The notes beneath the pieces are model-generated. The model was not told the DNA's origin, did not search any database, and saw only the letters and a program-made list of their open reading frames with translations. Made by a program: the position numbers and the translations under genes. This document shows positions 6,638 to 40,045 of a stretch of 64,000 nt of DNA, piece after piece (position 1 is the first letter of the stretch; the number at the start of each line of letters is the position of its first letter). The DNA comes from Sphingomonas quercus (GTDB taxonomy: Bacteria; Pseudomonadota; Alphaproteobacteria; Sphingomonadales; Sphingomonadaceae): assembly GCF_018863195.1 (NCBI RefSeq), contig NZ_JAHKRT010000001.1:1-64000 (forward strand), written 5' to 3'.

Positions 6638-7354
6638 TCACGATCGCGCTGCTGCGACGATTGGGCCACCCTTGCCGGACTGCACGAGGACCGCCGTGCG
6701 GTAGACAGGGTTGGGGTTCGGCGGCAATGCGAAGCTCGATGCGGCGCCCGACCAGGTGCCGATCGCCGTCAGCTGGCGGACGATATTACGGTGAGGCAGC
6801 GTGCGCCCGCCATTCTCACCGGCGCGGATCGGCACATTATTGACGCGCGGGTCATAGCGGACGACCCATATCGTCGACGTTGGCGCGCCGCGCGCTGCGC
6901 CGATAAACAGTTTGTCGCCAGTCAGCCGGATCTGCGGACCAGAATGTCGCGGTGCCGCGGTGATCGCCGCTTCAAGCTGCTGGCGATCGTTACCGACGAT
7001 CGTCTGCTTTCCGCCGTTTATGACCATCTGCGGCGTCGCGACTTCGCCGCGCCCGGCGCTATGGGCGTAGTCCCACTGCCGTGCCGTGAACCGGGGTGTG
7101 GCGAAAGTGTCCTTCCAGCCGAGCTGGTCCCAATAGGTCACCGCGAACGACAGCGGGATGACGTCCGGGCGATCGGCGATCGCATTGAGGTTCGCATTGG
7201 CCGGCGGACAGGAGGAGCAGCCCTGGCTCTGAAACAGCTCCACCAATACCGGCGAGCCGGCGGCAGGCGGCGGCGAAACGGATGCTGCGGAGACGCCAAC
7301 AGCGCCAGCAGCCGCCAGCGCGAGAGTCGCAGCGATCCAATGTTGGCTCTTCAT
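6638..7354 (-). CDS. DUF1223 thioredoxin-fold secreted protein
   Basis: A 238-aa protein with a signal peptide (about residues 1-24) and the DUF1223 hallmark VELFQSQGCSSCPPANANL, including a CxxC pair at C46 and C49. DUF1223 proteins have a thioredoxin-like fold; their substrate is not established. GAGGAG about 8 bases upstream supports the start. It follows the AhpD-like gene by 126 bases on the same strand and probably shares its ECF-type promoter, since no such promoter was found directly upstream. Context suggests a redox role in the periplasm, which is an inference. Confidence 0.85.
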   Translation of the reverse strand: MKSQHWIAATLALAAAGAVGVSAASVSPPPAAGSPVLVELFQSQGCSSCPPANANLNAIADRPDVIPLSFAVTYWDQLGWKDTFATPRFTARQWDYAHSAGRGEVATPQMVINGGKQTIVGNDRQQLEAAITAAPRHSGPQIRLTGDKLFIGAARGAPTSTIWVVRYDPRVNNVPIRAGENGGRTLPHRNIVRQLTAIGTWSGAASSFALPPNPNPVYRTAVLVQSGKGGPIVAAARS

Positions 7355-7480
7355 CGTGATGCTCCTCGACTGGTTCCGTGGATCTGGGCCTGCCCTCGGC
7401 CGCGCCCGTTAGACCCCGGCAGGCGCCTGAACGACCATAGGCCGGCCCGATAAAGCGGACCGGCCAAATCATGAATCGGC

Positions 7481-7780
7481 TCAGAACAGGTGCGTGCCGT
7501 GGGTGATCGCACCGCCGGCGCGGATCGCCGCAGCGACGGTGGTCGCTTCCGCGAGCTGCGCATCGGTTGCGCCGGCTTCTCGCGCCTGCCTGGTATGGAT
7601 CTCGATGCAATAGACGCACTGCGTCGTGAGCGCGACGGCAACGGCAATGAGCTGCTTGTTGAGCGCGGAGATCTCGCCGTCCCTGAACACGGCCTTGTCG
7701 AACTCCCAGAAGGCCGACATCGCGTCGGGCGCGCCCGCATCCAGGCTCTTCAGTTTCTTCAGCTTACCCATGTCGTGCAT
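7481..7780 (-). CDS. AhpD-like carboxymuconolactone decarboxylase family protein
   Basis: A 99-aa protein with the CMD/AhpD core. The signature CxxCxxxH is present (C55, C58, H62, in TQCVYCIEIHT), typical of alkylhydroperoxidase-type members that reduce peroxides through a cysteine pair. I chose the ATG at 7780 because GAGGAA lies 6 bases before it. An in-frame ATG at 7855 would add 25 polar residues. That ATG sits only about 8 bases after the -10 element of the upstream ECF-type promoter, so a leaderless longer form cannot be excluded. It is the first gene of a two-gene unit with the DUF1223 gene. Confidence 0.88.
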   Translation of the reverse strand: MHDMGKLKKLKSLDAGAPDAMSAFWEFDKAVFRDGEISALNKQLIAVAVALTTQCVYCIEIHTRQAREAGATDAQLAEATTVAAAIRAGGAITHGTHLF

Positions 7781-7862
7781 GTCGCGTTCCTCGTCGTCGT
7801 TCGAAGGTGGATGCTCTGGCCGGGTCGGACGTTGCCCGTCGCGCGCCGTCAGCATGAGGACC

Positions 7863-7888
7863 TACGTGCCGGCCGGGGCGGGGGTTAC
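7863..7888 (-). promoter_or_regulatory. ECF-type promoter for the AhpD-like/DUF1223 unit
   Basis: On the minus strand GTAACC is followed by exactly 16 bases and then CGTA. The same architecture occurs at four other gene starts in this island. It resembles the Caulobacter SigF consensus as I remember it (GTAACC, 16, CGAA). Confidence 0.75.
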
Positions 7889-7946
7889 AGAGCTGACCGA
7901 ATGACGAAATCCTCGTCGCCGGCCACCGACTGTGGGACGGATGAAC

Positions 7947-7978
7947 GGGAGGAGCGGGTCGTCCCGATCCGCTCCTCC
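7947..7978 (-). terminator. Hairpin after the spondin-domain gene
   Basis: A perfect 11-bp GC-rich stem (GGGAGGAGCGG and its complement) with an 11-base loop lies about 50 bases past the stop of the minus-strand spondin gene. No strong U-tract follows, so termination may be partial. Confidence 0.5.
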
Positions 7979-8030
7979 CCAGCCTTCGGCCGTCAATCAG
8001 GGACGTGGCGTGGACAATCGCCGGGCCTGA

Positions 8031-8837
8031 TCATGCCGTCGCCGCACCGGCGAACCTCGTGTCCTTGCGCACCACCGCCCCGATGAGGCCGAAGCCGAGC
8101 ATCATCATCGCCCAGGTTGCCGGCTCCGGAACGGCGGCGGCGGAAAAGGTGATGCGGTAAAATGGCGTCTCGGCGGAAAGCCCGCTGTTGAAACTATAGC
8201 CCGGCGCCGTGGTGAGCCCGTTGAACTTGCTGAAGTCGGCGAAGCTGCGCGAGACCGTGCCGTTCTCCGGATCACGCAGCGTCGCGTCGGCACCGGCGAT
8301 GTAGGCGGCATTTGCCGGATTGAAGAGCTCCGAGCCGGCGTCCCAGATATCGCCGGCGGTCTGCGTGATGGAGCTTATCAGCAGATTGCCCGCTGCATCG
8401 AACAGGCGATAGGCGTGCGGATCATCATTGCCGATGAAGGAATCGTTGCTGGGCACGACCATCGCCGCAAATGAAAAGAAGGGGTTGGTCGCCGGGTCGA
8501 CCGTAAAGGTCGCGCTCGCCACCTCGCCCGGGGGCATCGGGGCGCCACCCACCGTGCCGAGGACCGCAGCCGGATCTGCCGCGGCAAAGGCCGATAGCCA
8601 GTCCGTGCCAGAGCCGAGTTCGGCCGCCGTGACGATCGGCATGGCGGCAGGGCCGCCCTGATCGAAGGCATCGAAGGTGCCGCCGCTGAAGCCGACGTTG
8701 AGCGGCGCGACACCGACGCTTGTCGGCGGCGCGATGTTCTGCACGGTGACCGTGACCTTGCGCTGAGCAAAGGCCGGCTGGGCCACGGCTGCGGCGACAA
8801 GGACGGCCGGAATTGCCATTCTCGCGATCTGCTTCAC
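8031..8837 (-). CDS. Spondin-domain protein with PEPxxWA-CTERM anchor
   Basis: A 268-aa exported protein. It has a signal peptide ending near AFAQ, then a Spondin_N-type domain (VTVTVQNIAPPTSVGVAPLN, GGTFDAFDQGGPA, and APMPPGEVASATFTVD). The end is a PEP-CTERM sorting signal, VPEPATWAMMMLGFGLIG, with a basic tail. Such tails are recognised by exosortase. The start is a GTG at 8837, supported by AGGGAGA upstream. The longer in-frame reading has no signal peptide. It has its own ECF-type promoter 44 bases upstream, so this surface protein appears to be part of the stress regulon. Its function is unknown. Confidence 0.88.
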   Translation of the reverse strand: MKQIARMAIPAVLVAAAVAQPAFAQRKVTVTVQNIAPPTSVGVAPLNVGFSGGTFDAFDQGGPAAMPIVTAAELGSGTDWLSAFAAADPAAVLGTVGGAPMPPGEVASATFTVDPATNPFFSFAAMVVPSNDSFIGNDDPHAYRLFDAAGNLLISSITQTAGDIWDAGSELFNPANAAYIAGADATLRDPENGTVSRSFADFSKFNGLTTAPGYSFNSGLSAETPFYRITFSAAAVPEPATWAMMMLGFGLIGAVVRKDTRFAGAATA

Positions 8838-8880
8838 GACGCATTCTCCCTTGAGCAGACGGGATGCCTGCGTTCGGCAG

Positions 8881-8906
8881 TACGTCGACCGTGAGACCGC
8901 CGTTAC
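8881..8906 (-). promoter_or_regulatory. ECF-type promoter for the spondin-domain gene
   Basis: Minus-strand GTAACG, a 16-base spacer and CGTA, giving a predicted leader of about 35-40 bases before the GTG start at 8837. Confidence 0.72.
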
Positions 8907-8947
8907 AGTCCCGGGCGCGGATGCGGCGAAGCGTGGACGGGCCGCAG

Positions 8948-9591
8948 TCACCAGCGAAGCAGCCGTGGCCCCAGCAACGCGCCGACCCCCGCTGCAAGCG
9001 CTATTCCAAGACTGTACCAGGTGAGCACAAAGATCGCGGAGACTTCCGGACAGTGGAGGCAATAGATCGTGGCCGCCCAGGCGCCCGCCCCCAGCCCCGC
9101 CACCGCGCCGGCGGCGCGAAGGCGGTCGGCGCAAGCTTGCGGAACGACCAGAGCAGCCCGGCGAAGATCGGCGCGGCGAGCGCCACAACCAGCCACGGAC
9201 ATGCCATCCAGCTGCGTCCGAGCCACATCGCGAGCCAGTGCGATGAGGGCGTCCGGGCGAGCTCGCCGACCCCGACACCTGCCAGGATCAACACAGGCGC
9301 CGCCAGAAACCAGAGTCCGCCGAGCGATCCCGGCGCAGGTCGCGCCAGACGCGAGATCCCGTATACCGCGCCGAGCCCGAGCGAAATCGTGTAGGTCCAT
9401 TTCATCCAGAAGGAGAAGCCGTGCATCGCGACGCGCAGGTCCGGACGGACGCCGAGCGTCACCGTCACCAGCAGCATGGCCGCGACGCAGCCGGCGGCGA
9501 TGCCCAGGCCGATCCGCGTAACGACGGCGTGGCGCGGCACGGATCGAACATCTCGGCTCAGCGCCTGAATGAGCTGATCGTTGTTCATCAT
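8948..9591 (-). pseudogene. nrsF: NrsF-type (DUF1109) anti-sigma factor, frameshifted
   Basis: The first 156 codons give a multi-helix DUF1109/NrsF protein starting MMNNDQLIQALSRDVRSVP with a conserved cysteine at C131 (WMACPW). After LAPT the frame carries an unlikely Arg/Pro/Ser-rich tail to 9001. Family-like sequence continues in the next frame (RLRAAGAVAGLGAGAW, IYCLHCPEV, LGIALAAGVGALLGPRLLRW) to a stop at 8948. Adding one base near 9120-9128 restores a 214-aa protein whose second cysteine becomes C181. I recall positions 131 and 181 as the conserved cysteines of Caulobacter NrsF. The family restrains a SigF-type ECF factor at the inner membrane. The frameshift may be a true mutation or a sequence error. 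Confidence 0.82.
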
Positions 9592-9683
9592 GAGCAGCCT
9601 TTGGTGGCATCCTCGAAACCTTCGGCCGCGAGGATCGCCTCGACTTGAGCTGGGCTTCGCTCGTTGCCGTCCTCAACCCGGGC
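9588..9683 (-). other. 31-codon open stretch overlapping the nrsF start, possible sigma-gene tail
   Basis: Immediately upstream of nrsF a stretch with no start reads ARVEDGNERSPAQVEAIL, then AAEGFEDATKGCS, and its TGA overlaps the nrsF ATG. A stop-start overlap like this is typical of a sigma/anti-sigma operon. Its first part loosely resembles the end of sigma region 4 (SRV.RARAQ.EAIL). A TAG lies just upstream and only about 70 bases remain before the msrA stop. It may be the last remnant of a lost ECF sigma gene. This is speculative. Confidence 0.25.
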
Positions 9684-9684
9684 C

Positions 9685-9710
9685 TATGTCGGTTGGCCGC
9701 GATCAGTTGC
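9685..9710 (-). promoter_or_regulatory. Degenerate ECF-type promoter before nrsF
   Basis: GCAACT, 16 bases, CATA has the same spacing as the five good sites but three mismatches. It may be a decayed or weak promoter for nrsF, or chance. Confidence 0.2.
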
Positions 9711-9756
9711 AAAGCTGCTGCCGACGTTCCTGGGATCTCCGGCGGCACGAGCGATC

Positions 9757-10428
9757 CTACGACCGATAGAGGCGCGGCATCATGCGGCGTAGCGCGTCCA
9801 CTTTCGGCGCGTCGTTGATGACGATGTACGGGTAGGTCGGGTTCTTCGCCATGAAGTTCTGATGATAGCCTTCGGCCGGATAGAAGTGATCTGCATGCTC
9901 GATCCGCGTGACGATCGGGCGGGAAAAGATATGCGACGCCGTGAGCTGCTGGAGGTAGGCACGCGCGACCCGCTCCTGCGCGGCCGACTGCGGGAACAGC
10001 GCGGTGCGATACTGGGAGCCATGATCAGGCCCCTGCGCATTCAACGTCGTCGGGTCCGCCACGACGGAGAAATAGACGCGCAGCAGGTCGGCATAGCTGA
10101 CCCTGGCGGGGTCGAATATGACCCGAACCGCCTCGGCGTGTCCGGTGGTGCCGGTCGACACCTCCTCATAGGTCGCGGCGCCGGCCCGCCCGCCGGCATA
10201 GCCCGACGTCGCCGAGGCGACGCCCTTCACATGGTCGAACACGCCCTCCACGCCCCAAAAGCATCCGCCGGCGAAGACCGCGGTCTCGGTCTTGCCGGAT
10301 ACAGGGGCGGTGACGCTGGGCTGCGGTGCGTCGACAAATGCTTCCGCGGACGCGCCAACAGCGGAGGATGCCGCCACCATGGCCAGCACAAGGACGCCGC
10401 CGAAACCGAGGTAGGAAACTGAACGCAT
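9757..10428 (-). CDS. msrA: Periplasmic peptide-methionine (S)-S-oxide reductase
   Basis: A 223-aa MsrA with an N-terminal signal segment (about residues 1-28), so it acts in the periplasm. The catalytic motif GCFWGVE has its nucleophile at C56. Family blocks such as TSGYAGG, YEEVSTGTTGHAEAV and DHGSQYRTA follow. No further cysteine is present, so it is a 1-Cys form that needs an external reductant. AAAGGAG lies about 10 bases before the ATG. It is divergent from msrB, and both genes have matching ECF-type promoters in the shared upstream region. The CcdA and thioredoxin-like genes nearby could supply electrons; that link is inferred. Confidence 0.95.
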   Translation of the reverse strand: MRSVSYLGFGGVLVLAMVAASSAVGASAEAFVDAPQPSVTAPVSGKTETAVFAGGCFWGVEGVFDHVKGVASATSGYAGGRAGAATYEEVSTGTTGHAEAVRVIFDPARVSYADLLRVYFSVVADPTTLNAQGPDHGSQYRTALFPQSAAQERVARAYLQQLTASHIFSRPIVTRIEHADHFYPAEGYHQNFMAKNPTYPYIVINDAPKVDALRRMMPRLYRS

Positions 10429-10458
10429 GGCCGGAAAACTCCTTTGACTACCCTGACA

Positions 10459-10484
10459 TACGCAGATCCCTGTCGTGGCGTTAC
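10459..10484 (-). promoter_or_regulatory. ECF-type promoter for msrA
   Basis: Minus-strand GTAACG, 16 bases, CGTA. Its -35 overlaps the -35 of the divergent msrB promoter within the palindrome GTTACGCGTAAC (10480-10491). Confidence 0.75.
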
Positions 10485-10486
10485 GC

Positions 10487-10512
10487 GTAACCTCGGCGGC
10501 CGATCGGACGTA
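10487..10512 (+). promoter_or_regulatory. ECF-type promoter for msrB
   Basis: Plus-strand GTAACC, 16 bases, CGTA. The -10 element ends only 9 bases before the msrB ATG at 10522, so transcription should begin within a few bases of the start codon and give a leaderless or nearly leaderless mRNA. Confidence 0.77.
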
Positions 10513-10521
10513 TCACCAATC

Positions 10522-11064
10522 ATGACCCACCCATCCGATCGCCGAGCCTTCCTCACCACCAGCGCCCTGGCGCTCGCCGGCGCCGCCATGGCCACCGCCA
10601 GCCTGCCGGCGCTTGCGGCCGCGCCCCGCCCGTTGCGCCTGAGCGACGCTGAGTGGCGCCGGCGCCTCTCGCCGCAAGCCTATGCCGTGCTCCGGCAGGC
10701 CGCGACCGAGCGCCCGTTCTCGAGCCCGCTCAACGCCGAGCACCGCAACGGCACCTTCCTCTGCGCCGGCTGCGCGCTGCCGCTATTCGCCGCGCGCACC
10801 AAGTTCGACAGCGGCACGGGCTGGCCGAGCTTCTGGACGTATCTCCCCGATGCGATCGCCACGAAGAGCGATACCAGCCTGTTCATGGAGCGGACCGAAG
10901 TGCGCTGCGCACGCTGCGACGGGCATCTCGGCCATGTGTTCGACGACGGGCCCAAGCCGACCGGCCTTCGCTACTGCATGAACGGCGACGCGATGCACTT
11001 CGCGCCGCTCCCGGCATTTCCGGCCGCACCTGCACCGTCCCCGGGAGGCGTGGCCAGGAGGTGA
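10522..11064 (+). CDS. msrB: Tat-exported peptide-methionine (R)-S-oxide reductase
   Basis: A 180-aa MsrB. The N-terminus carries a Tat-type signal (SDRRAFLTTS, then a hydrophobic stretch to LPALAAA), so it is probably exported folded. Four zinc cysteines occur as two pairs (C81/C84 and C129/C132). SGTGWPSFW and the catalytic C152 in RYCMN are present. The ATG at 10522 was chosen because the ECF-type promoter lies just upstream and the signal starts there; an earlier in-frame ATG at 10444 would precede the promoter. With msrA it should repair both sulfoxide epimers in periplasmic proteins. Confidence 0.94.
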   Translation: MTHPSDRRAFLTTSALALAGAAMATASLPALAAAPRPLRLSDAEWRRRLSPQAYAVLRQAATERPFSSPLNAEHRNGTFLCAGCALPLFAARTKFDSGTGWPSFWTYLPDAIATKSDTSLFMERTEVRCARCDGHLGHVFDDGPKPTGLRYCMNGDAMHFAPLPAFPAAPAPSPGGVARR

Positions 11065-11202
11065 ATCAAGCGTTGCGCACATCGCGGCCCGATGGCGCAT
11101 GACCTCAAGGCGGTCCTGTCCCATCGGGCCGATCACCTCACCGGCTTCGTCCCAAGGCGATTGCCGGCCGCCCGCCCCGCCACGGCCGTTGGACTGGAAG
11201 GG

Positions 11203-11931
11203 TCAGAACTGGGTCGACCACTCGGTCATCCAGTCCGGGAAATGATCAAGCGCGAACGCTTCGACCTTCCGGTCGAAGCCGGTCAGGATGAAGACGCCGA
11301 CCAGGAGGAGAAGCACGCCCAGCACCGCTTTCCCGCGTCCGCCGGCCGCCATCATCCGCCCACGCCACCGGGCGAGCGCCCCGCGAGCCGCGAATGCGAT
11401 GACCAGCAGCACGGTCGAGATGCCGAGCCCGAAGGCAACCATAACGAGGGCCACCTCGCCCAGGTCCTTGCCTTCGGCCGCAAGTGCGACCGCGGCGCCC
11501 AGTGTCGGACCCACGCAAGGCGCCCAGACGATGCCGAGGAGCGCCCCGACCAGCCCCTGCCCCCACAATCCCGCCCTGCCGTCCAGCGAGGACTGGCGCT
11601 CGCTCGCCCACGCGGCAAGCGGGGTAGCGATACGGGTGAGCACGTCCTGCAGCTTCGGCAGGAGCAGGATTACGCCGGCCGCGCACAGGATAGCCGCCCC
11701 GGCCGCGCGCACGACGAGCGTGTCGATCCCGAGCGCTTGCCCGAACGCGGCCACGATGAAGCCCGTCGCGGTGAATGCGGCCACCAGCCCTGCCGCCAGC
11801 GCCAGCGGAGCATAGCGGTGCCGCTGCGCCGCCGACGAGAGCACGATCGGCACCAGCGGCAGCACACAGGGCGACAGGATGGTGAGCGCGCCCGCCGCAT
11901 AGGCGAGCGCGGGATTGAGAGCGGACGCCAT
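11203..11931 (-). CDS. CcdA-like cytochrome c biogenesis/thiol transport membrane protein
   Basis: A 242-aa protein with about six membrane helices of the CcdA/DsbD-gamma family. The two redox cysteines expected in helices 1 and 4 are visible: C22 in LSPCVLPLVP and C139 in WAPCVGPTLG. The family moves electrons from cytoplasmic thioredoxin across the inner membrane to periplasmic partners. It starts 8 bases after the stop of the thioredoxin-like gene, so the two form an operon under that gene's ECF-type promoter. The Msr genes next door make periplasmic sulfoxide repair its most likely destination, rather than cytochrome c maturation. That assignment is inferred. Confidence 0.88.
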   Translation of the reverse strand: MASALNPALAYAAGALTILSPCVLPLVPIVLSSAAQRHRYAPLALAAGLVAAFTATGFIVAAFGQALGIDTLVVRAAGAAILCAAGVILLLPKLQDVLTRIATPLAAWASERQSSLDGRAGLWGQGLVGALLGIVWAPCVGPTLGAAVALAAEGKDLGEVALVMVAFGLGISTVLLVIAFAARGALARWRGRMMAAGGRGKAVLGVLLLLVGVFILTGFDRKVEAFALDHFPDWMTEWSTQF

Positions 11932-11939
11932 CCTCGGCG

Positions 11940-12350
11940 TCAGGCGATCGCGCTGTGGATCACCGCGGTGACCTTGCCGTCATCGGTTTCGTGGGCGATC
12001 CGGGCCGTCTCGCGCTTGCCGTGGAAGGCGATCACCGTCGACTGCATCGTGGCGCCGAACTTCTGCCAGAGTGGCTTCTGCGTGTCGTAGTCGATACGGA
12101 ACACCTGCATGTCGCGATATGCGGGCTCTGCGGTCACCCGGGCGATGGTCTTGGCCTGCTCGCGGCAGACCGGGCACCAGGGCGCATGAACCCACACGAT
12201 GATCGGCTTGCCCGCCTTCTGCGCATCATCGAACGCAGCTTGATTGAATGGCTGTACCGCGGGAGCCGCGGCGGCGGCGGGCGAAACGGCGACGACCGTC
12301 GGAACTCCGGCAGCAAGAGCCGCCAAAACCGCGAAAGAAGACTGGCGCAT
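11940..12350 (-). CDS. Periplasmic thioredoxin-like protein
   Basis: A 136-aa thioredoxin-fold protein with a signal peptide (about residues 1-29, ending in an Ala-rich stretch). The active site is WCPVC (C59, C62). The ATG at 12350 is supported by AGGGAGG 5 bases upstream. A longer in-frame start at 12392 would overlap the ECF-type -10 element and spoil the signal peptide. It is followed by the CcdA-like gene. Together they form a plausible membrane-to-periplasm reductant chain, with MsrA and MsrB as candidate acceptors. The acceptors are not shown by sequence alone. Confidence 0.86.
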   Translation of the reverse strand: MRQSSFAVLAALAAGVPTVVAVSPAAAAAPAVQPFNQAAFDDAQKAGKPIIVWVHAPWCPVCREQAKTIARVTAEPAYRDMQVFRIDYDTQKPLWQKFGATMQSTVIAFHGKRETARIAHETDDGKVTAVIHSAIA

Positions 12351-12382
12351 AGGGCCTCCCTGAAACTGTGAAGCACGCTTCC

Positions 12383-12408
12383 TACGGGCCATCGCCGGGC
12401 GCGGTTAC
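12383..12408 (-). promoter_or_regulatory. ECF-type promoter for the thioredoxin-like/CcdA operon
   Basis: Minus-strand GTAACC, 16 bases, CGTA, about 33 bases upstream of the ATG at 12350. The roughly 220 bases further upstream, as far as the next gene, hold no recognisable gene. Confidence 0.75.
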
Positions 12409-12627
12409 ACATGGTCGAGAAGGTCGGCCTCACGACGATGATTTTTACCGGACGGGGGCGGTCAAGGGCTGCATGCGCGAGGCGGTGGCCGGCGCCGGTC
12501 GTGATAAGCGAGGCACGCCGAACAGCGCCCGGGCGCGCCCCTAAATTGTCCACTCGTCTTCTGGCAGCCTGCACGGTCGTGGAATCCGGCTATCTCCCGC
12601 CACCGACACTCCCCCCGCCGTGCCGGA

Positions 12628-22552: not shown

Positions 22553-23635
22553 TCAGTTCACCACTGCATCGGCGAGCAGGCCGACCGACAAGGCGTAATA
22601 GTTGGAGCAGTTGTAATCGAGGATGGCCCGATAGTTGGTGGTGAGAAGATAGGCGGTCTGCCCCGGGCCGTCGGGCTCGATCAGGGTCGCCATCTCCTCG
22701 TCCGCCGGCCACGGCCCGCCGGCCTGGGTCAGGCCCTTCGCCTTCCACTCGGCGACGGTCAGCCAACGGCTATGCCGCGCAAAGACGCGCGGGCAGCGCG
22801 GGCTCACCAGCCTGGTCGCCACGGCGCCGCGATCGAAATCGGGCGGCACCATCACCGCCGTGCCCCAGCGGACATCGGGCTTCCAACCGGCGTTGACGAG
22901 ATAATTGCCGATCGAGGCAAGCGCGTCGTCGGCGTTGTTCCAGATATCGACCTTGCCGTCGCCATTGCCGTCGCGGGCGAGGCGCAGATAGACGGACGGC
23001 AGGAATTGCGGATAGCCGGTGGCGCCGGCCCAGCTCCCCTTGAGCTGATCGCGCCTCACGCCGCGATCGATCATCTTCAGCGTGTCGATGAACTCGGTGG
23101 TGAACAGCTCGCGACGCCGCCCCTCGAAGGCGAGCGTGGCCAGCGAGCGGGGCAGATCGAAATTGCCGGTATAGCCGCCATAATCCGTCTCATGCCCCCA
23201 GATGGCGACCATGATCGCCTCCGGCACGCCGGTCTCCGTCTCGATGCGGGCGAGCGAGGGGCGCGCGTTCAGCCAGGCGCGCTGGCCACGCCCGATGCGC
23301 GCGGCATCGACATGGCGGGCGCGATAGGGCGCGAAGGCCGGCGGCGCCGCGCTCGGCGTGCCCGGCTGGCGGCGATCGAGCGTCACCACCCGCGGATCAT
23401 AGCTGAGCGTCGGGATCACCGCGTCGAACGTCGCGGCGGTCACTCCCTCGGCGAGGGCGCGCTGGCGCAGCCCGACGACGAAGGCGGAGAAGCCGGCTTC
23501 CTCCGGCGGCGCGGCGGCGGCCGGCGGAAGCGGCTCGGGATCGGCATCCTCTTCCTGCACCTGGGCATGGGCGGCGATCGACCCGCAACAGGCGGCAACG
23601 AGGAGAAGCGAACGGATACCGGGCAGGAAGGACAT
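22553..23635 (-). CDS. Lytic murein transglycosylase, MltB family
   Basis: A 360-aa periplasmic enzyme that cleaves glycan strands of peptidoglycan with formation of anhydro-muramic acid. A signal peptide is followed by a Pro/Glu-rich linker. The SLT_2 domain carries the catalytic glutamate in IWGHETDYGG and the block GATGYPQFLPSVYL. The start at 23635 follows AGGGAGGGCGA; the longer frame upstream lacks a signal. With the carboxypeptidase behind it, this is a cell-wall pair at the head of the tmk operon. Confidence 0.92.
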   Translation of the reverse strand: MSFLPGIRSLLLVAACCGSIAAHAQVQEEDADPEPLPPAAAAPPEEAGFSAFVVGLRQRALAEGVTAATFDAVIPTLSYDPRVVTLDRRQPGTPSAAPPAFAPYRARHVDAARIGRGQRAWLNARPSLARIETETGVPEAIMVAIWGHETDYGGYTGNFDLPRSLATLAFEGRRRELFTTEFIDTLKMIDRGVRRDQLKGSWAGATGYPQFLPSVYLRLARDGNGDGKVDIWNNADDALASIGNYLVNAGWKPDVRWGTAVMVPPDFDRGAVATRLVSPRCPRVFARHSRWLTVAEWKAKGLTQAGGPWPADEEMATLIEPDGPGQTAYLLTTNYRAILDYNCSNYYALSVGLLADAVVN

Positions 23636-23688
23636 TCGCCCTCCCTGCCACAGGCGGCGGGGATCATGAACCCCCGTCGCCCGCGGGC

Positions 23689-25101
23689 TCAGAAATCGGT
23701 GACGAAATCGAGGAAGAAATAATGCGCGTCGCCATTGTCGGGGGCGTTGGGCGCATCCTTCAGGAAACGGCCCCGCGCCAGCACCGCGCCGCCGGCCTCG
23801 ACCCGGAAGATCTTGGGCACGAACCAGTAGCGCACGCGGCCCTCGACCTGGGTGCCGGCATGATCGCCGGACCGGCCGCGCGCATCGCGCACACCGGTCG
23901 AGCCGAAGCTGTCGGTCTTCGAATCGAGCCACAGGCCGCGGACCATGACGAAGCCGTCGAGCTTCTTGCTCGGCGCCGCTTCCAGCCTGACGCCAACCGA
24001 GCGCAGATTGGCCCGGGAGACCATGCCATAGAGGCTGGACGGGCCGAAATCGGTGCGCGCCGCGCCGTAAAGGCTGTCGAATCGGGTGATCTTGCTCGGG
24101 TCGCTGTCCTCGCCGGTGATCTTGTCACCGTGAAATGAGATACGCGGTGCCCACGGCCCGCCAAACTTCCGCCCGACCTCGCCATGGATCAGCCACGCCG
24201 ACACGTCGACATCCTTGCGATCGGTGGCGGCGGTCGAGGCGCGGGCATGTCCGGTCTGGCCGATGCCTTCCACCTCGAAGTCGAAGCTGTTCGTCTGCGG
24301 CTTGCGGAACAGGCGGCCACCATAGGTCACCAGATGCCGGTTCCTCGTTGCCTGATAGGAGGCATCCCGCTCGGCGAGGCGAAAGACATAGGCTTCGCCG
24401 GTGACGCCCGCGATCAGCGGCCGGGTATAGTCGCCGCCGAAGAACTGCAGGCCGGTGCGGGCGCGGTCCAGCTCGACCCTGTTGTGGTGGATCGCGTCCG
24501 GATCGCTCGGCAAGCGCGTGCTCGGCATCGTCCAGAACAGCAGAAGATGGTCCTTCCCCTGCCCCGTCCAATCGAACGAGACGCCGGTGAAGCTGTTGAC
24601 GCTGTCCGAGAAATCCGGCCGCGCGGCGAGGCGCCCCGCGCCGATGTCGAGCGTGAAGCGACCCGCAGTGAGGGCGCCCCGCGAACCCTTGCCGGTCATG
24701 CCGTCGAGATCGAACCGCAGATAGGCCTGTAGCGGCTCGAGCGCGTTGACCTCGTTGATGCCGGCGGACGAATTGTCCTTCTCGGCATAGCCGCGCGCGT
24801 CGCGCAGCTCGCCGACGATGTGCACCGGACCGGTATCATAGTCGGCGAGCAAGGTGGTGCGGAAGGTGGTGAGCAGGTCGCGCCTGGCGATGTTGGGGCG
24901 AAGCTGCCCGTCGATGCCTTCGACGCGGGTGCGGAAATTCAGCTTGAGGGTGAGATTGTCCGGCGCGTCGACCCATTCATGCAGCGGATTCGAATCGGCC
25001 GCCACCGCCGGCGAAAACCCCGCCGCCGCCATGACCATTCCCCAGCCCATCGCCGCGGCGCGCGTGCGCCGGGCGAGCCCATGCTTGTTCTCGTTCACCA
25101 T
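23689..25101 (-). CDS. Outer-membrane porin, alginate-export family
   Basis: A 470-aa beta-barrel protein. A signal peptide (to about residue 35, PAVAADS) precedes the Alginate_exp-type barrel with LKLNFRTRVEGIDGQLR, NEVNALEPLQAYLRF and FSDSVNSFTGVSFDW. The barrel ends YFFLDFVTDF with a terminal aromatic. Members form solute channels, and most are not tied to alginate. No polysaccharide genes are adjacent. It lies 53 bases upstream of the transglycosylase gene on the same strand and may be cotranscribed with it. Confidence 0.85.
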   Translation of the reverse strand: MVNENKHGLARRTRAAAMGWGMVMAAAGFSPAVAADSNPLHEWVDAPDNLTLKLNFRTRVEGIDGQLRPNIARRDLLTTFRTTLLADYDTGPVHIVGELRDARGYAEKDNSSAGINEVNALEPLQAYLRFDLDGMTGKGSRGALTAGRFTLDIGAGRLAARPDFSDSVNSFTGVSFDWTGQGKDHLLLFWTMPSTRLPSDPDAIHHNRVELDRARTGLQFFGGDYTRPLIAGVTGEAYVFRLAERDASYQATRNRHLVTYGGRLFRKPQTNSFDFEVEGIGQTGHARASTAATDRKDVDVSAWLIHGEVGRKFGGPWAPRISFHGDKITGEDSDPSKITRFDSLYGAARTDFGPSSLYGMVSRANLRSVGVRLEAAPSKKLDGFVMVRGLWLDSKTDSFGSTGVRDARGRSGDHAGTQVEGRVRYWFVPKIFRVEAGGAVLARGRFLKDAPNAPDNGDAHYFFLDFVTDF

Positions 25102-25272
25102 CCCACCTTATCGAAACCCATATCGGGACGGGCGACAAGGTCCATGCGGCATGCGGAGCCCTCTGGCTGCGCAAACGACGTGCCCCCCGGCCTACCATCC
25201 GCCGAACGGCCTAATCACATTGTCCTAACGGGGAGCTAACCGAGGGATCGCAAACTGTTGGCGGCGGCGCTC

Positions 25273-28166
<2,894 letters not shown>

Positions 28167-28292
28167 GCGTTTCCCCAAAAAAACTTCGCGACCGCCGCGC
28201 GGCCCGGTGAGGGATGGCGCTGGCGTTGCGTCTAACCCATGAACGTGGTGCGTTCGGCGCGGCTGGCGCAGGGCGAGCAAAGGGGGCTGAGA

Positions 28293-31097
28293 GTGAAAAG
28301 AGAGATGTTGCTCGGTGCGGCGGCGATCGCGCTGTTCGGTGGGGCCCAGGCGGTTGCGCAGACGAGCATTTCGCCGCCCAACAATGCGGGCGTCACCAGC
28401 CCGCGCGAAGCTTTCCCGGTAGAGCCGGGCAGCGATTACTATCTCGCCAATTACAGCGCCTATGAAGCCTATCTGAAGAAGATCGCCACCCAGTCCGACC
28501 GCATGAAGCTGGTCGACATCGGCAAGAGCGCCGAGGGGCGGACGCAGTGGATGGCGATCGTCTCCTCGCCCGAAAACCTCGCCAAGATGGACCAGTATCG
28601 CGGCATCGCCCAGCGACTGGCCAAGGCCGAGGGGCTGACCGACGAACAGGCCCACCAGCTCGCCAACGAAGGCAAGGCAGTGGTGTGGATCGACGCCGGC
28701 CTGCACGCCACCGAGGTGATCACGGCGCAGAGCCAGATCCACGTCCTCTACCGCATGCTGACCTACAACGATGCCGAGACGAAGCGCATCCTCGACAATG
28801 TCATCATCCTGTTCGGGCATGACAATCCGGACGGCATGCAGCTTGTCGCCGACTGGTACATGCAGAAGGCGGACGAGAAGAAGCGCGAATACAACTACAT
28901 CCCGCGCCTGTATCAGAAGTATATCGGCCACGATAACAACCGTGACTCATTCATGGCGCAGATGCCGGAGACGGAGAACGTCAACAGGCAGCTGTTCCGT
29001 GTCTGGTATCCGCAGATCATCTTCAACCAGCACCAGACCGGCCCGGCGGGCATGGTGGTGTTCGTTCCGCCGTTCCGCGATCCGTTCAACTACAACTATG
29101 ATCCTCTGCTCGTCACCGAGCTGGACGAAGTCGGCGCGACGATCCACAGCCGCCTGATCGGCGAGGGCAAGCCCGGCTCCGGCATGCGCAGCGCCGCCAA
29201 CTACTCCACCTGGCATAACGGGATGGAACGCTCCATCTCCTATTTCCACAATTCGATCGGCCTGTTGACCGAGATCATCGGCGGGCCGACGCCGCAGAAG
29301 ATCCCGCTCATCCCCGACACGCAGCTGCCCAAGGGCGACGAGCCGATGCCGGTGGCACCCGGCGCGTGGCATCAGAGCCAGAGCCTGGAATATCAATGGT
29401 CGATGGATCGCGCGGTGCTCGATTATGCGGCGCGCAACCGCGAACGGCTGCTGTTCAACATCTATCGCATGGGCGCCAACGGCATCGCCCGCGGCAATCG
29501 CGACAGCTGGACGATCGAGCCCAACGACATCGATGCGCTGAAGGAAGCCGCCAAGGCTCGCCAGGCTCCGTCCGCGGCCTCGGAGCCGAGCTATGATCCG
29601 CGCCAGCGCAACGCCGTCGACCCCGCGCTCTACGAGACCGTGCTGCACGATCCCGCCAAGCGCGATCCGCGCGGCTATGTCATCCCGCTCGACGCCCAGC
29701 GCGACCTGCCGACCACGATCACCTTCCTCAACACCCTGATCAAGACCGGCGTCGACGTGCTGCGCGCCACCCAGCCCTTCACGGCAGGCGGCAAGACCTA
29801 TCCGGCCGGCTCCTTCGTGGTGAAGACGGCACAGGCCTATCGTCCGCACGTCCTCGACATGTTCGAGCCGCAGAACCACCCGAACAATCTCGAATATCCC
29901 GGCGGCCCGCCCAAGGCGCCCTACGACATCACCGGCTACAACCTCTCCTACCAGATGGGCATCGGCTATGATCGCATTCTCGAGGGATTCGACGGCCAGT
30001 TCGAGAAGGTGCCCGATCTGCTGACGGCGCCGGCCGGCCATGTCATCGGCACCGGCAAGGCCGGATGGCTGCTCCGCCACGAGGCAAACAACAACTTCAT
30101 CCTCACCAATCGCCTGCTGAAGGCCGGCGTGAAGGTGGCGTGGCTGAAGGAGCCGACCAGCGCCGAGGGCAAGCAGTTCGGCGCCGGCGCGGTATGGGTG
30201 CCGGCTTCGGCCGCCGCGCAGAAGATCATCGCCACCAGCACGCAACAGCTTGGCGTCGACGCCTATGCCGTCGCCGCCAGGCCGAGCGGCGCGGCGATGC
30301 CGCTCAAGCCGGTCCGCGTCGGGCTGGTCGATCAATATGGCGGCGTGATCCCGTCCGGCTGGATCCGCTGGCTGCTCGAGCAATATGAGTTCCCGTTCAA
30401 GGTCGTCTATCCGCAGGAACTCGACGCCGGGAAGCTCAACGCCAAATATGACGTGCTCGTCTTCGCCGACGAAACGGTGCCGCCGTCCAACGATAGCCCC
30501 TATCGCGGCCGCACCCCGAACCAGCCCAAGCCGGAGGATATCCCGGCCGAGTTCCGGTCGTGGCTCGGCGTTATCAGCGACGCCAGGACGGTGCCGCAGC
30601 TCTCCGCCTTCGCCAAGGCGGGCGGCACGATCGTGACGATCGGCAGCGCCAATCGGCTCGGGCCGCTGCTCGGCGCGCCGGTGCAGCCGGCGCTCGTGCG
30701 CATGGTGAACGGCAAGCCGGCGCCGCTCGACACCAAGGAATTCTATATTCCTGGCGCGCTGATCCGGGCGGATGTCGATCCGAACCAGCCGCTCGCCTAT
30801 GGCGTGCCGGACAAGGTCGACATGTTCTTCGACCACAGCCAGTCGTTCAACATCGCCGCCGGCAGCCCGACGGCGAAGCGCGTGTCCTGGTATTCGGACG
30901 CGAAGCCGCTGCGCAGCGGCTGGGCGATGGGTCAGGAAAAGTTGCAGGGAACGACCGCGATCGTCGATGTCGATCTCGGCAAGGGCAAGCTGTTCGTGGT
31001 CGGCCCGGAGGTGACGCAGCGCGCCCAGCCCTATGTCACCTTCAAATTCCTGTTCAACGGCCTGCTCTACGGCCCGGCCGAGGCCGCCGCTCGTTAA
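28293..31097 (+). CDS. Secreted M14-family metallocarboxypeptidase
   Basis: A 934-aa exported zinc peptidase. It starts at a GTG (28293) preceded by AGGGGG. The signal peptide runs MLLGAAAIALFGGAQAVAQ. The M14 zinc ligands are H138 and E141 (LHATEV) and H247 (NQHQTGP). The N-terminal domain contains DIGKSAEGRTQW and HDNPDGM. The long C-terminal half has a glutamine-amidotransferase-like or accessory fold and is typical of the large sphingomonad M14 proteins. A strong terminator ends the gene. The TonB receptor and M20 amidohydrolase that follow suggest a peptide-use locus. Confidence 0.92.
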   Translation: MKREMLLGAAAIALFGGAQAVAQTSISPPNNAGVTSPREAFPVEPGSDYYLANYSAYEAYLKKIATQSDRMKLVDIGKSAEGRTQWMAIVSSPENLAKMDQYRGIAQRLAKAEGLTDEQAHQLANEGKAVVWIDAGLHATEVITAQSQIHVLYRMLTYNDAETKRILDNVIILFGHDNPDGMQLVADWYMQKADEKKREYNYIPRLYQKYIGHDNNRDSFMAQMPETENVNRQLFRVWYPQIIFNQHQTGPAGMVVFVPPFRDPFNYNYDPLLVTELDEVGATIHSRLIGEGKPGSGMRSAANYSTWHNGMERSISYFHNSIGLLTEIIGGPTPQKIPLIPDTQLPKGDEPMPVAPGAWHQSQSLEYQWSMDRAVLDYAARNRERLLFNIYRMGANGIARGNRDSWTIEPNDIDALKEAAKARQAPSAASEPSYDPRQRNAVDPALYETVLHDPAKRDPRGYVIPLDAQRDLPTTITFLNTLIKTGVDVLRATQPFTAGGKTYPAGSFVVKTAQAYRPHVLDMFEPQNHPNNLEYPGGPPKAPYDITGYNLSYQMGIGYDRILEGFDGQFEKVPDLLTAPAGHVIGTGKAGWLLRHEANNNFILTNRLLKAGVKVAWLKEPTSAEGKQFGAGAVWVPASAAAQKIIATSTQQLGVDAYAVAARPSGAAMPLKPVRVGLVDQYGGVIPSGWIRWLLEQYEFPFKVVYPQELDAGKLNAKYDVLVFADETVPPSNDSPYRGRTPNQPKPEDIPAEFRSWLGVISDARTVPQLSAFAKAGGTIVTIGSANRLGPLLGAPVQPALVRMVNGKPAPLDTKEFYIPGALIRADVDPNQPLAYGVPDKVDMFFDHSQSFNIAAGSPTAKRVSWYSDAKPLRSGWAMGQEKLQGTTAIVDVDLGKGKLFVVGPEVTQRAQPYVTFKFLFNGLLYGPAEAAAR

Positions 31098-31127
31098 GCC
31101 TCTGTACCAATAAAGTTCCCCCCAGGG

Positions 31128-31159
31128 GCCGGGATGGTGACATCCCGGCTCTTTTTTTT
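31128..31159 (+). terminator. Strong intrinsic terminator after the M14 gene
   Basis: A 9-bp perfect stem (GCCGGGATG/CATCCCGGC) with a GTGA loop is followed by TC and eight T residues. Confidence 0.92.
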
Positions 31160-31249
31160 GCGCTGCGTCGTGAGGGGGTGGCGCAGGCGCGCGTCTTTCC
31201 TGTCGAGCCCGTCCGCCAAGGACGGCCGATCTCAACAGGGGGACAGACA

Positions 31250-34200
31250 ATGGCGACGCGCTCCGCAATTCACTGGCTGCTGGTCGGGAGCTGCGCCTGC
31301 AGCGCGCTCGCCAGCGGCATGGCACAGGCCCAGACCGCCGGCGAGGTCGCGCCCGAGGCGCCGCCGGCCGGCCGCGAGGAGATCGTGGTCACCGGCTCGC
31401 GCATCGCGCGGCCCGACTATGTCTCGAACAGCCCGATCGTTTCGGTCGGCTCGGAGGCGATCCAGAATTCCGGCCAGATCACCATCGAGCGGTCGCTGAC
31501 CCAGATGCCGCAATTCTCCGGGTCCTTCGGCCAGTCCAACGGCGGCAGCACCTCGACCGGCCTCAACGGCGGTCAGTCCTACGCGTCGCTGCGCGGCCTC
31601 GGCCCCAAGCGCACGCTGCTGCTGCTCGACGGCCGCCGGCTGCAGCCGTCCAACCCGGATGGCTCGGTCGATCTCAACATCATCCCGGAGGCGCTGATTG
31701 AGAATGTCGAGGTGATCACCGGCGGCGCCTCGACCACCTATGGCTCCGACGCGACCGCCGGCGTCGTCAATTTCCGCCTCAAGCGCAAGTTCGACGGCGT
31801 CGAGCTGAACAGCCAATATGGCGTCAGCGACTATGGCGACGGCCAGTCGTTCCGCATCACCGGCACGGTCGGCGGCGAGTTCGCGGATGGCAAGGGCAGC
31901 GCCGTGCTGTCCGTGGACTATACCGATCGCGGTCGGGCCTATCAGAAGAAGCGGCCTTACTACCTTGCGCGCAGCAACGTTCCCGGCACCGCCACCCTCC
32001 CCCAGGGCACGGCGCTGTTCGGCGGCAACACCCCGACGCTGGCGTCCGTCAACGCGCTCTTCCAGGGCAAATATGGCACCGCCGCCCTGCCCGGCAGCGC
32101 CGCCGGCCGCTACACCGCGCAGCTCGGTTTCAACACGGACGGCTCGCTGTTCAGCACCGTCAACGTGCCCGTGCTCAATTTCCGTGATCCGGAATCGGAC
32201 CTGGCCTACATCGTGACCAGCAGCCCGGGCAGCCAGCAGATCAATTTCGGCTTCACCGGCAGCTCCATCCAGTCGAACCTGAAGCGCTACAATATCTTCG
32301 GCAAGACGGAGTATGAGCTCAGCGATCACCTGAAGGTCTTCGCTCAGGTCACCTATACCAGCTACAGCTCGGTCGGACTTTCCAATCCGACGCTGGCGTC
32401 CAACGTCTACGGCCTGTCCGTGCCGGTGACCAATCCCTTCATCCCGGCCGACTTCAGGCCGATCCTCGCGTCGCGCGCCGATCCGAACGCAGACTTCAGC
32501 TTCTACAAGGCGTTCAACCTGCTCGGGCCGCGCTATCAGGGCTATGAGTACAACGTCTACCAGATCACCACCGGCGCCTCCGGCGACATCGGCGTGAAGG
32601 ACTGGACCTGGGACCTGTACGGCAGCGTCAGCCAGGCGAAGTTCGAGAACTGGCAGACCGGCGGCGCCAGCTTCCAGGCGCTGCACGACCTGCTCTACAG
32701 CCCCAATGGCGGCACAAGCCTGTGCGCGGGCGGCTTCAACCCGTTCGGCGACCGGACGCCCTCGCAGGCCTGCGTCGACTATATTTCCCGTCGCACGCTC
32801 AACACCAACGAGCTGCGGCAGCGCACGGTGGAAGGCAACATCCAGGGCGAGCTGTTCAAGGGCTGGGCGGGCCCGGTCCGCTTTGCGGTGGGCGCCGATT
32901 ATCGCTACAACAGCTACGGCTTCCAACCGGACTCCGCCTTCTCGCTGCCGAACGGGACCAGCGACATCGTCGGCTACAGCGTGCTGCTGGCCGCCCGGGG
33001 CAAGGTCAGCACCAAGGAAATCTACGGCGAGCTGCTGTTCCCCGTGGCGAAGGACCTGCCGCTGGTCCAGGAACTCAACCTCGACCTTGGCGCGCGCTAT
33101 TCGGATTACAGCTCGGTCGGCGGCGTCGCCACCTACAAGGCCGATCTCGACTGGCGGGTGTTCGAGCCGCTGCGGCTGCGCGGCGGCTATAACCGCGCCA
33201 TCCGCACGCCGAGCGTGGGCGAGCTGTACGCGCCCGTATCCACCGGCAGCGTCGGCATCGGCGCGCCGAACCGCAGCAACAATAGCGGCGATCCCTGCGA
33301 CACCCGCTCCTCCTATCGGCAGGGCGCGAACAGCGCCAAGGTGCAGGCGATCTGCCTGGCGCAGGGCATGCCCGCCTCGCTGGTCGGCACCTATGCGCTC
33401 GGCACCTCGCAGGTGTTCGCGCTGACCGGCGGCAACCCGGAGCTTGAGGAAGAGACGGCCGACACCTTCTCGGCCGGAGCCGTGATCACATCCCCGTTCA
33501 GCTCGCCATTGTTCCGCCGCATGTCGCTGTCGGTCGACTGGTACAAGATCAAGGTCAAGGGCGCGATCGGCCCGTTGTCGATCTCTCAGGCCTTCCAGTT
33601 CTGCTTCAACGCCGACGGCAGCAACCCGACCTATGATCCGAACAATTATTATTGCGGCCTCGTCGGGCGGCGTAATCCGTCGACCGGCGTGCCGGTCAAT
33701 CCCAGCCAGCCGCTGCTCAACCTCGGCAAGTTCGACGTCAGCGGCGTCGACGTGCAGTTCGACTGGCAGGTCGATCTCGATGACCTCGGTCTCGGCAATG
33801 CCGGCAAGCTCTCGCTCAACACCGCCGTCAGCTATCTCGACAAGTTTGCATCGCAGGCGCTGCCCGGCGCCCCGACCTATGATTATGCCGGGACGATCGG
33901 ATTCAGCATCGATACGGCCGGCGGCATCGCCCATCCGCGCTGGAAGTCGATCACGGCCCTGTCCTGGTCGAAGGGCCCCGCGACGCTCGGCTTCCGCTGG
34001 CGCTTCATCGACAAGATGAAGTCGAACCAGTCGGTCACCTCGGCGACCAGTACGCTGCGCGGTATCAACGCCTATAACGTGTTCGACCTCAACGCCCGCC
34101 TCGACCTGCCGTGGAATGGCGAGCTGCGCCTGGCCATCACCAATCTGTTCAACAAGACCCCGCCCCAGAATGGTGACGAAGCCGGCAATTTCGACTCCCA

Positions 34201-34255
34201 GAATTACGACACGATCGGGCGTTATTTCTCCTTCGGCATCAGCCAGCGCTTCTGA
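31250..34255 (+). CDS. TonB-dependent outer-membrane receptor
   Basis: A 1001-aa receptor. After a signal peptide (to about AQAQ) comes a TonB box (EEIVVTGSRIA) and the plug (LRGLGPKRTLLLLDGRR, VEVITGGASTTYGSDATAGV). A large barrel ends FGISQRF. AGGGGGACAG before the ATG fixes the start at 31250; the reading frame is open for about 690 bases upstream but that part is M14 coding in another frame. The receptor lies between a secreted peptidase and a secreted M20 amidohydrolase, so peptides or acyl amino acids are likely substrates. It is related in plug sequence to the receptor at 165-3155. Confidence 0.94.
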   Translation: MATRSAIHWLLVGSCACSALASGMAQAQTAGEVAPEAPPAGREEIVVTGSRIARPDYVSNSPIVSVGSEAIQNSGQITIERSLTQMPQFSGSFGQSNGGSTSTGLNGGQSYASLRGLGPKRTLLLLDGRRLQPSNPDGSVDLNIIPEALIENVEVITGGASTTYGSDATAGVVNFRLKRKFDGVELNSQYGVSDYGDGQSFRITGTVGGEFADGKGSAVLSVDYTDRGRAYQKKRPYYLARSNVPGTATLPQGTALFGGNTPTLASVNALFQGKYGTAALPGSAAGRYTAQLGFNTDGSLFSTVNVPVLNFRDPESDLAYIVTSSPGSQQINFGFTGSSIQSNLKRYNIFGKTEYELSDHLKVFAQVTYTSYSSVGLSNPTLASNVYGLSVPVTNPFIPADFRPILASRADPNADFSFYKAFNLLGPRYQGYEYNVYQITTGASGDIGVKDWTWDLYGSVSQAKFENWQTGGASFQALHDLLYSPNGGTSLCAGGFNPFGDRTPSQACVDYISRRTLNTNELRQRTVEGNIQGELFKGWAGPVRFAVGADYRYNSYGFQPDSAFSLPNGTSDIVGYSVLLAARGKVSTKEIYGELLFPVAKDLPLVQELNLDLGARYSDYSSVGGVATYKADLDWRVFEPLRLRGGYNRAIRTPSVGELYAPVSTGSVGIGAPNRSNNSGDPCDTRSSYRQGANSAKVQAICLAQGMPASLVGTYALGTSQVFALTGGNPELEEETADTFSAGAVITSPFSSPLFRRMSLSVDWYKIKVKGAIGPLSISQAFQFCFNADGSNPTYDPNNYYCGLVGRRNPSTGVPVNPSQPLLNLGKFDVSGVDVQFDWQVDLDDLGLGNAGKLSLNTAVSYLDKFASQALPGAPTYDYAGTIGFSIDTAGGIAHPRWKSITALSWSKGPATLGFRWRFIDKMKSNQSVTSATSTLRGINAYNVFDLNARLDLPWNGELRLAITNLFNKTPPQNGDEAGNFDSQNYDTIGRYFSFGISQRF

Positions 34256-34274
34256 CCACCGGCGGAGGACGATC

Positions 34275-35738
34275 ATGCATAACGCCTTCACATTCGGGCT
34301 GGCCGCGACCCTCGTCGCGGCCAGCCCCGGCTGGGCCAGGGAATTGACGCCGCCCGACCAGACGCAGCTGCTCGGCACGATCGACCGCGATTCCGCGGTA
34401 CTCGGCGACACTGCCCTGCAAATCTGGAAGTTCGCCGAGCTCGGCTATCTCGAAACGCAGAGTTCCGCCTTGCTGCAAAGCCGGCTGAAGGAGGCCGGCT
34501 TCCAGATGAAGACCGGCATCGCCGGCGAGCCCACCGCCTTCCTCGCCAGCTATCGCAACGGCAGTGGCGGCCCGGTGATTGCCGTGCTGGCGGAGTTCGA
34601 TGCGCTGCCGGGCCTCGCCCAGGCGGCGGTGCCGACGCGCCAGCCGCTGAACCAGGCGGCCGGCCATGGCTGCGGCCATAACCTGTTCGGATCAGCGTCC
34701 ACCTACGCGGCCATCGCCGTCAAGGAATGGATGATCCGCAACAATATCAAGGGCGAAATTCGCCTCTATGGCACGCCCGCGGAGGAAGGCGGATCGGGCA
34801 AGGCCTACATGGCGCGCGACGGGCTGTTCAACGATGTCGACATCGCGCTGCACTGGCATCCCGGCAATGCCAACTCGGCCGCGCAAGGCCCGAGCATGGC
34901 CAATATCAGCGGCAAGTTCCGGTTCCACGGCAAATCCTCACACGCCGCGGCGGCGCCGGACAAGGGCCGCTCCGCACTCGACGCCGTCGAGGCGATGGAC
35001 GCGATGGTCAATCTGATGCGGGAGCATATTCCGGATCGAACCCGCATCCATTACGTCATCACCAACGGCGGCAAGGCTCCCAACGTCGTGCCCGACGAGG
35101 CCGAGGTATATTACTATGTACGGCAGACCGATCCGCAGATCGTCATTTCGGTGATGGACTGGGTGAAGCAGGCCGCTGCCGGCGCGGCCATGGGCACCCA
35201 GACCAAGGTCGATTTCGAACAGACCGGCGGCGTCTACAGCCTGCTTCCCAACGAAGCGCTGATGCATGTCATGGACCGCAATCTCCATCGCGTCGGCGGC
35301 ATCAGCTGGACGCCGGAGGAGCAGGCATTCGGCGCGGAGATTCAGAAGAGCTTCACCGGCCAGGCGCCGCCTCTCTCCAGCGTCGGCGAAATCCAGCCGG
35401 CCGTGATCGGCAGCGAGGGGGCCGCATCCACCGACGTCGCCGATGTGAGCTGGGTGGTGCCGACCGTCGGGCTTTCCACCGCCACCTTCGTCCCCGGCTC
35501 GGCCGGCCATAGCTGGCAGAATGCGGCGGCGGCGGGGATGAGCATCGGCGTTAAGGGCGCCATTCTCGCGGCCAAGACCCTGTCGCTGACGGCCGCCGAG
35601 CTGTTTCGCAGCCCGGAGGAGATCAGCGCGGCCAAGGCCGAGTTTGCCAGGCGGCGCGGCGCGGGCTTCCAGTACAAGTCGCTGGTCGGCGACCGCAAGC
35701 CGCCGCTCGACTATCGCAAATCCACCAGCGTGGAATAG
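34275..35738 (+). CDS. Secreted M20-family amidohydrolase
   Basis: A 487-aa zinc amidohydrolase with a signal peptide (MHNAFTFGLAATLVAASPGW). Metal-site residues lie in HGCGHN (131-136), TPAEEGGSGK and HWHPG. It matches the AbgB-like subgroup that splits p-aminobenzoyl-glutamate or related aminoacyl amides. GGCGGAGGAC precedes the ATG, 19 bases after the receptor stop, so the two are an operon. The protein would act in the periplasm on material brought in by the receptor. The exact amide is not known. Confidence 0.92.
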   Translation: MHNAFTFGLAATLVAASPGWARELTPPDQTQLLGTIDRDSAVLGDTALQIWKFAELGYLETQSSALLQSRLKEAGFQMKTGIAGEPTAFLASYRNGSGGPVIAVLAEFDALPGLAQAAVPTRQPLNQAAGHGCGHNLFGSASTYAAIAVKEWMIRNNIKGEIRLYGTPAEEGGSGKAYMARDGLFNDVDIALHWHPGNANSAAQGPSMANISGKFRFHGKSSHAAAAPDKGRSALDAVEAMDAMVNLMREHIPDRTRIHYVITNGGKAPNVVPDEAEVYYYVRQTDPQIVISVMDWVKQAAAGAAMGTQTKVDFEQTGGVYSLLPNEALMHVMDRNLHRVGGISWTPEEQAFGAEIQKSFTGQAPPLSSVGEIQPAVIGSEGAASTDVADVSWVVPTVGLSTATFVPGSAGHSWQNAAAAGMSIGVKGAILAAKTLSLTAAELFRSPEEISAAKAEFARRRGAGFQYKSLVGDRKPPLDYRKSTSVE

Positions 35739-35755
35739 TCCCCCGCGCCTGGTGG

Positions 35756-35792
35756 TCCGGCCGCCCCCTCGACGCTCCGGGGGGCGGCCGGA
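35756..35792. terminator. Bidirectional hairpin between convergent genes
   Basis: A perfect 12-bp GC-rich stem (35756-35767 with 35781-35792) lies 17 bases past the M20 stop and 6 bases past the fecR stop. It can serve both convergent genes, although neither side has a clear U-tract. Confidence 0.6.
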
Positions 35793-35798
35793 GCCGCT

Positions 35799-40036: not shown

Positions 40037-40045
40037 GGTCGGTCG

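Follow-up and report, generated by a model that had tools for sequence, protein, structure and literature searches.

The question raised by this locus is what a broken anti-sigma gene means for the regulon around it. An earlier note, made from the letters alone, had reported an NrsF anti-sigma gene with a frameshift and had suggested that the regulon could be constitutively on or deaf to its signal. We examined the gene within the window, the whole 64-kb stretch of Sphingomonas quercus DNA analysed here. Its start codon lies at 9591 on the minus strand, with relatives aligning to the second ATG at 9588. In a Pfam profile search, the minus-strand ORF 9591-9001 (196 aa) matches positions 1-149 of PF06532 (E 2.7e-40) and a second frame of the same strand, at 9157-8948, matches positions 144-204 (E 2.2e-24); a genome-wide search placed the two parts at 9561-9115 and 9133-8951. 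Both lie above the curated PF06532 cut-off, although in two frames:

9115..9591, minus strand: nrsF part in the start-codon frame, PF06532 1-149, with the first conserved cysteine kept
8948..9133, minus strand: C-terminal part of nrsF in the other frame, PF06532 144-204, with the second conserved cysteine and the stop codon

Since the two matches overlap at 9115-9133, the frame switch falls within these bases, consistent with the position near 9120-9128 proposed earlier; the identity of the gene and its frameshift, as sequenced, are thereby confirmed. The start-codon frame stays open to 9001, through an unrelated Arg/Ser-rich tail. Comparison with orthologues, which the earlier note had recommended, found a continuous frame and both conserved cysteines in all 46 distinct intact relatives (50 rows; L020-L023 duplicate L028, L056, L035 and L034 and each was counted once, and for L012, L015-L017 and L089-L105 only the summary row was used). 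The relatives are 212-216 aa long (L019 and L027, at less than 35% identity, were left out of this count), so that the 214 aa predicted for the gene with one base restored is the length expected. The window copy has no such continuous frame of about 213 aa: it is a broken copy of the PF06532 family and not a working member. A programmed frameshift is not supported, as 46/46 distinct intact relatives read the same stretch in one frame.

The two family cysteines occupy positions 130 and 180 of the relatives, numbered from the second Met, each in 46/46 distinct intact sequences. These positions agree with the claimed 131 and 181 and correspond to C131 and C181 of Caulobacter NrsF (PMC3511200). 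An extra cysteine three residues before the second is found in 39 of the 46. The 196-aa reading has cysteines at 35, 131 and 189, of which C131 is the first family cysteine and C189, within the Arg/Ser-rich tail, is not the second; the latter is encoded in the other frame (...YCLHCPE...). The first cysteine is kept and the second is found only in the other frame, so that no single protein carries both; the earlier description of C131 as kept and of C181 as lost with the C-terminal part holds for this reading.

The damage extends upstream of nrsF. An ECF sigma gene directly precedes an intact nrsF in 42/42 related loci from a scan of named genomes; in L026 (genome G010) it lies about 1.26 kb before nrsF, not adjoining. 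The window leaves only the gap between the end of msrA (9757) and the start of nrsF (9591), which is too small for a sigma gene, about 540 bases long. Compared with the closest loci, L028 (Sphingomonas formosensis) and L029 (Novosphingobium clariflavum), the gap consists of a spacer, 32 bases like the sigma start, 44 mid-gene bases and the last bases of the gene, about 90 of the 540 bases being left in three pieces: 9676-9645 resembles the 5' end, 9644-9601 codon 101 onward, and 9603 to about 9589 the 3' end. Two internal deletions are seen against L029, of about 268 and 177-180 bases, and the bases CAA are common to both sides of the second junction. The intact relative is an ECF sigma factor with regions 2 and 4; directly before nrsF, the window holds only a remnant of such a gene. 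The operon promoter has changed as well, in both boxes. Among 48 distinct related loci, 44 score 8-10 of 10 against GTAACC-N16-CGTA (L063, L040, L026 and L027 score 5-6; L019 scores 8, with GTGACC at an odd distance), and the autoregulatory promoter GTAACC-N16-CG(T/A)A is not found before the window operon:

9589..9676, minus strand: ECF sigma gene remnant, by likeness to intact L028/L029
9685..9710, minus strand: altered sigma-nrsF operon promoter, GCAACT-N16-CATA, 7/10 against GTAACC-N16-CGTA

Judged by its sequence, the ECF16-type sigma/NrsF module at the window is dead.

The sites and genes around this module are preserved:

7863..7888, minus strand: perfect GTAACS-N16-CGTA site before a CMD-domain gene (7481-7855) and a DUF1223 gene (6638-7354)
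8881..8906, minus strand: perfect site 3' of nrsF, before a PEP-CTERM gene (8031 to about 8840)
9757..10428, minus strand: msrA (PF01625), intact by profile match
10459..10484, minus strand: perfect site before msrA
10487..10512, plus strand: perfect site before msrB
10522..11064, plus strand: msrB (PF01641), intact by profile match
11203-11931, minus strand: DsbD/CcdA-like gene
11940-12392, minus strand: thioredoxin-like gene, probable start 12350
12383..12408, minus strand: perfect site before the thioredoxin-like/ccdA pair

All five perfect sites of the 64-kb window thus fall within 7863-12408, each before a gene or gene pair, as expected of ECF16 target genes, whereas 100 shuffles gave a mean of 0.02 sites and never reached five. 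Genome-wide there are ten GTAACS-N16-CGTA sites, five in the window, three at a sigma-nrsF pair on contig C9 and two others; eight of the ten are therefore at these two loci. It should be noted that a reversed control pattern has 11 sites in the genome, so it is the grouping of the real sites and not their total that is special. The CGAA variant has three sites in the genome against eight for its control, none of them at the window or C9 locus. Both msrA and msrB bear the promoter type of the ECF16 sigma group. In several relatives (L018, L021-L025 and others), an extra GTAACC-N16-CGTA lies no more than about ten bases from the stop codon of nrsF, so the next gene seems to form a unit of its own within that regulon. 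A short stretch at 11065-11202 resembles the C-terminal part of an SDR gene that stands complete between msrB and ccdA in the S. formosensis cluster; the window SDR gene was therefore lost too.

Could another sigma factor serve these promoters? The best sigma match elsewhere in the genome, on contig C9, is 77% identical to the S. formosensis sigma, stays close to it in the alignment through regions 2 and 4, and is accompanied by an intact NrsF of 213 aa; a more distant sigma (37%) and NrsF are found on C15. Relocation of the window sigma gene was rejected, its best match being this C9 paralogue in an operon of its own. The C9 pair has three promoter sites, of the same type as those of the window. 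Its neighbours (L018) are genes for an MNIO enzyme (PF05114), a DUF2063 protein, an SDR and a DoxX protein, a setting that may resemble the Caulobacter sigma-F operon as a whole, with a possible link to bufferins. DUF2063 genes are also within the Caulobacter sigma-F regulon (PMC3511200). G001, a genome of the same genus, has a C9-type pair at a distance of 2-4 kb from its msrA and msrB, both of which bear perfect sites. Because of the conserved regions 2 and 4, the shared site type and this arrangement, the C9 sigma, our candidate for transcription of the window target genes, is likely to drive the window promoters in trans. We also observed that the middle fragment of the window sigma remnant (9644-9605) shares 36/40 bases with the C9 paralogue, compared with 34/44 with L028 or L029; this closeness differs from that of nrsF as a whole and could reflect gene conversion or kept ancestral bases.

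We therefore favour, with a probability of about 0.75, a dead imported ECF16-type switch inside its own regulon, whose promoters are kept and served in trans by the C9 sigma. The resident C9 sigma would be able to use the same promoters, which would make the imported switch redundant; the switch would then have decayed, the sigma gene probably first and nrsF recently, and msrA, msrB and the others would now depend on the C9 sigma in trans or be expressed at some other basal level.

Where did the cluster come from? The window nrsF falls among scattered sphingomonads (five rows, 100/98), beside S. formosensis and N. clariflavum first and Sphingomonas sp. PAMC 26621 and S. phyllosphaerae next, and the C9 copy stands in an open fork (92/81) with copies of two same-genus genomes (G001 and G004) and two Novosphingobium copies. 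A search of 397 family genomes gave nrsF matches with an E value of 1e-40 or lower in 23, and identity exceeded 67% in just two, the window's own genome and that of S. formosensis (G020). The same-genus stretches retrieved for comparison align to the window from 16.5 kb onward and nowhere earlier. Six cluster genes have codon scores of 0.10-0.28 compared with 0.25-0.56 for 36 others, scores biased in favour of the window bulk by a codon table trained on high-scoring window genes. Import of the cluster together with its own switch is the simplest reading of these patterns. A plasmid source was considered and set aside: 214 plasmid records match parts of 7400-12500, none covering 80% in one place; the ccdA-thioredoxin part is present at 78% on a plasmid of Sphingomonas hankookensis, and a DUF1109 gene at 73% on one of Sphingomonas sp. 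R1. Further along the window, about 18 kb (23462-41742) are absent from G004 and G001, where the flanks lie 270-310 bases apart; the segment ends beside a tRNA-Ser gene (41742-41831) and has the look of a tRNA-associated genomic island.

On the window branch, nrsF shows 15 synonymous against 5-6 nonsynonymous changes before the break and 8-10 against 1-2 after it. As change is mostly synonymous in both parts, the break is most likely recent. The sigma remnant has changed at more residues than nrsF (4/21 versus 9/189, p 0.03; bases, 10/63 versus 40/526, p 0.051), but not differently from intact msrA (4/21 versus 22/202, p 0.28). These counts hint that the sigma gene may have been lost before nrsF was broken, an order that agrees with Caulobacter, in which nrsF could not be deleted, probably since free sigma is toxic (PMC3511200).

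The same synonymous pattern on both sides of the break is also what would be expected if the frame break were a sequencing or assembly error, nrsF being intact and acting as a second anti-sigma on the C9 sigma. Moreover, proportionally fewer residues have changed in nrsF than in msrA on that branch (9/189 versus 22/202, p 0.04). We nevertheless consider such an error improbable, though it is the most serious competitor: long homopolymers are absent from the break stretch, the promoter of the operon has changed, and no frame break was found in the 17 other window genes comparable with same-genus genomes (18 genes were compared for frame breaks, and one was dropped at 24% identity). Two of the compared genes covered little of the relative's ORF; on reading, both had the start and the end of a complete gene. 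Twelve frame-split matches were set aside as following no listed window gene, being plus-strand hits over minus-strand genes or in another frame, and a codon-usage scan of the window that found no direct frame change also missed the nrsF break and is no evidence. One of the 17, a pyrH-like gene, has a longer C-terminus, ending (50922-51012) about 25 residues later than its counterparts in G002 and G004. An extra base in the raw reads, named earlier as the finding that would make the nrsF gene intact, would restore only nrsF and not the switch; the sigma gene and the promoter would still be dead.

It is far less probable that transcription running on from msrA yields a truncated NrsF that acts as a brake on the C9 sigma, still binding it but unable to sense or release. 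Directly upstream, msrA is read from the same strand and has a perfect promoter, the interval 8800-10600 showed no terminator-like site, and in Bradyrhizobium japonicum OsrA the cysteine kept here is tied to sigma binding and the one lost to release (PMC3420878). However, positions 141-200, where the family is best conserved, are mostly lost, and nothing shows selection for the foreign, Arg-rich tail. The wider proposal, in which this truncated product is a signal-deaf brake in a rewired circuit, made by msrA read-through while the resident C9 switch runs the imported repair regulon, is a shade less credible again. Finally, Caulobacter NrsF cysteine changes do raise basal expression (PMC3511200), but the suggestion that the regulon is constitutively on or deaf for want of a working anti-sigma is the least plausible of all and is not supported here, since the cognate sigma gene is a remnant, so that the broken anti-sigma has no local sigma to release, and the C9 sigma has its own intact NrsF.

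A dead switch amid kept promoters can be compared with known systems. In Caulobacter crescentus SigF-NrsF (ECF16), NrsF likewise has two conserved cysteines and the sigma gene is followed by nrsF, but both genes are intact, compared with a sigma remnant and a frameshifted nrsF in the window, and the SigF promoter is GTAACC-N16-CGAA, compared with a CGTA -10 box here; no response of msrA homologues to sigma-F is seen in that account, which argues against simple equivalence (PMC3511200). B. japonicum EcfF-OsrA (ECF16) is similar in that its regulon includes methionine sulfoxide reductases as well as a protein of cytochrome c biogenesis, and in its GTAAC...CG(t,a) promoter and autoregulation; it differs in its intact switch and in a spacing of N14-15 before a further base (PMC3420878). 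Brucella melitensis BcrS-AbcS (ECF16) has a two-cysteine DUF1109/NrsF anti-sigma and a link to methionine sulfoxide repair, but its switch is intact and the genes are MsrQP-like repair genes and a methionine-rich peptide instead of MsrA/MsrB (PMC8315932). RpoE7 of Sinorhizobium meliloti is a further ECF16 sigma (PMC6180224), and a type of perchlorate island carrying sigF/nrsF has pseudogenes among its accessory genes (PMC4623255). Closest is the S. formosensis cluster (L028/L020), with the same gene order (thioredoxin-like, ccdA, msrB, msrA, nrsF) and an nrsF 92% identical to that of the window over the first 155 residues, but there the sigma gene is complete, nrsF is intact and an SDR gene is retained. 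The published ECF16 systems fit the window regulon.

The loss of the switch is decay of an ordinary kind, made instructive by its setting. A dead switch corrects a reading that would predict constitutive expression. If the trans-control step is true, the locus would be a clean snapshot of regulon capture, in which the promoters of an apparently imported stress regulon are kept while their own switch decays beside a compatible resident one, and the repair of methionine sulfoxide in this strain would be expected to respond to the signal that the C9 NrsF senses.
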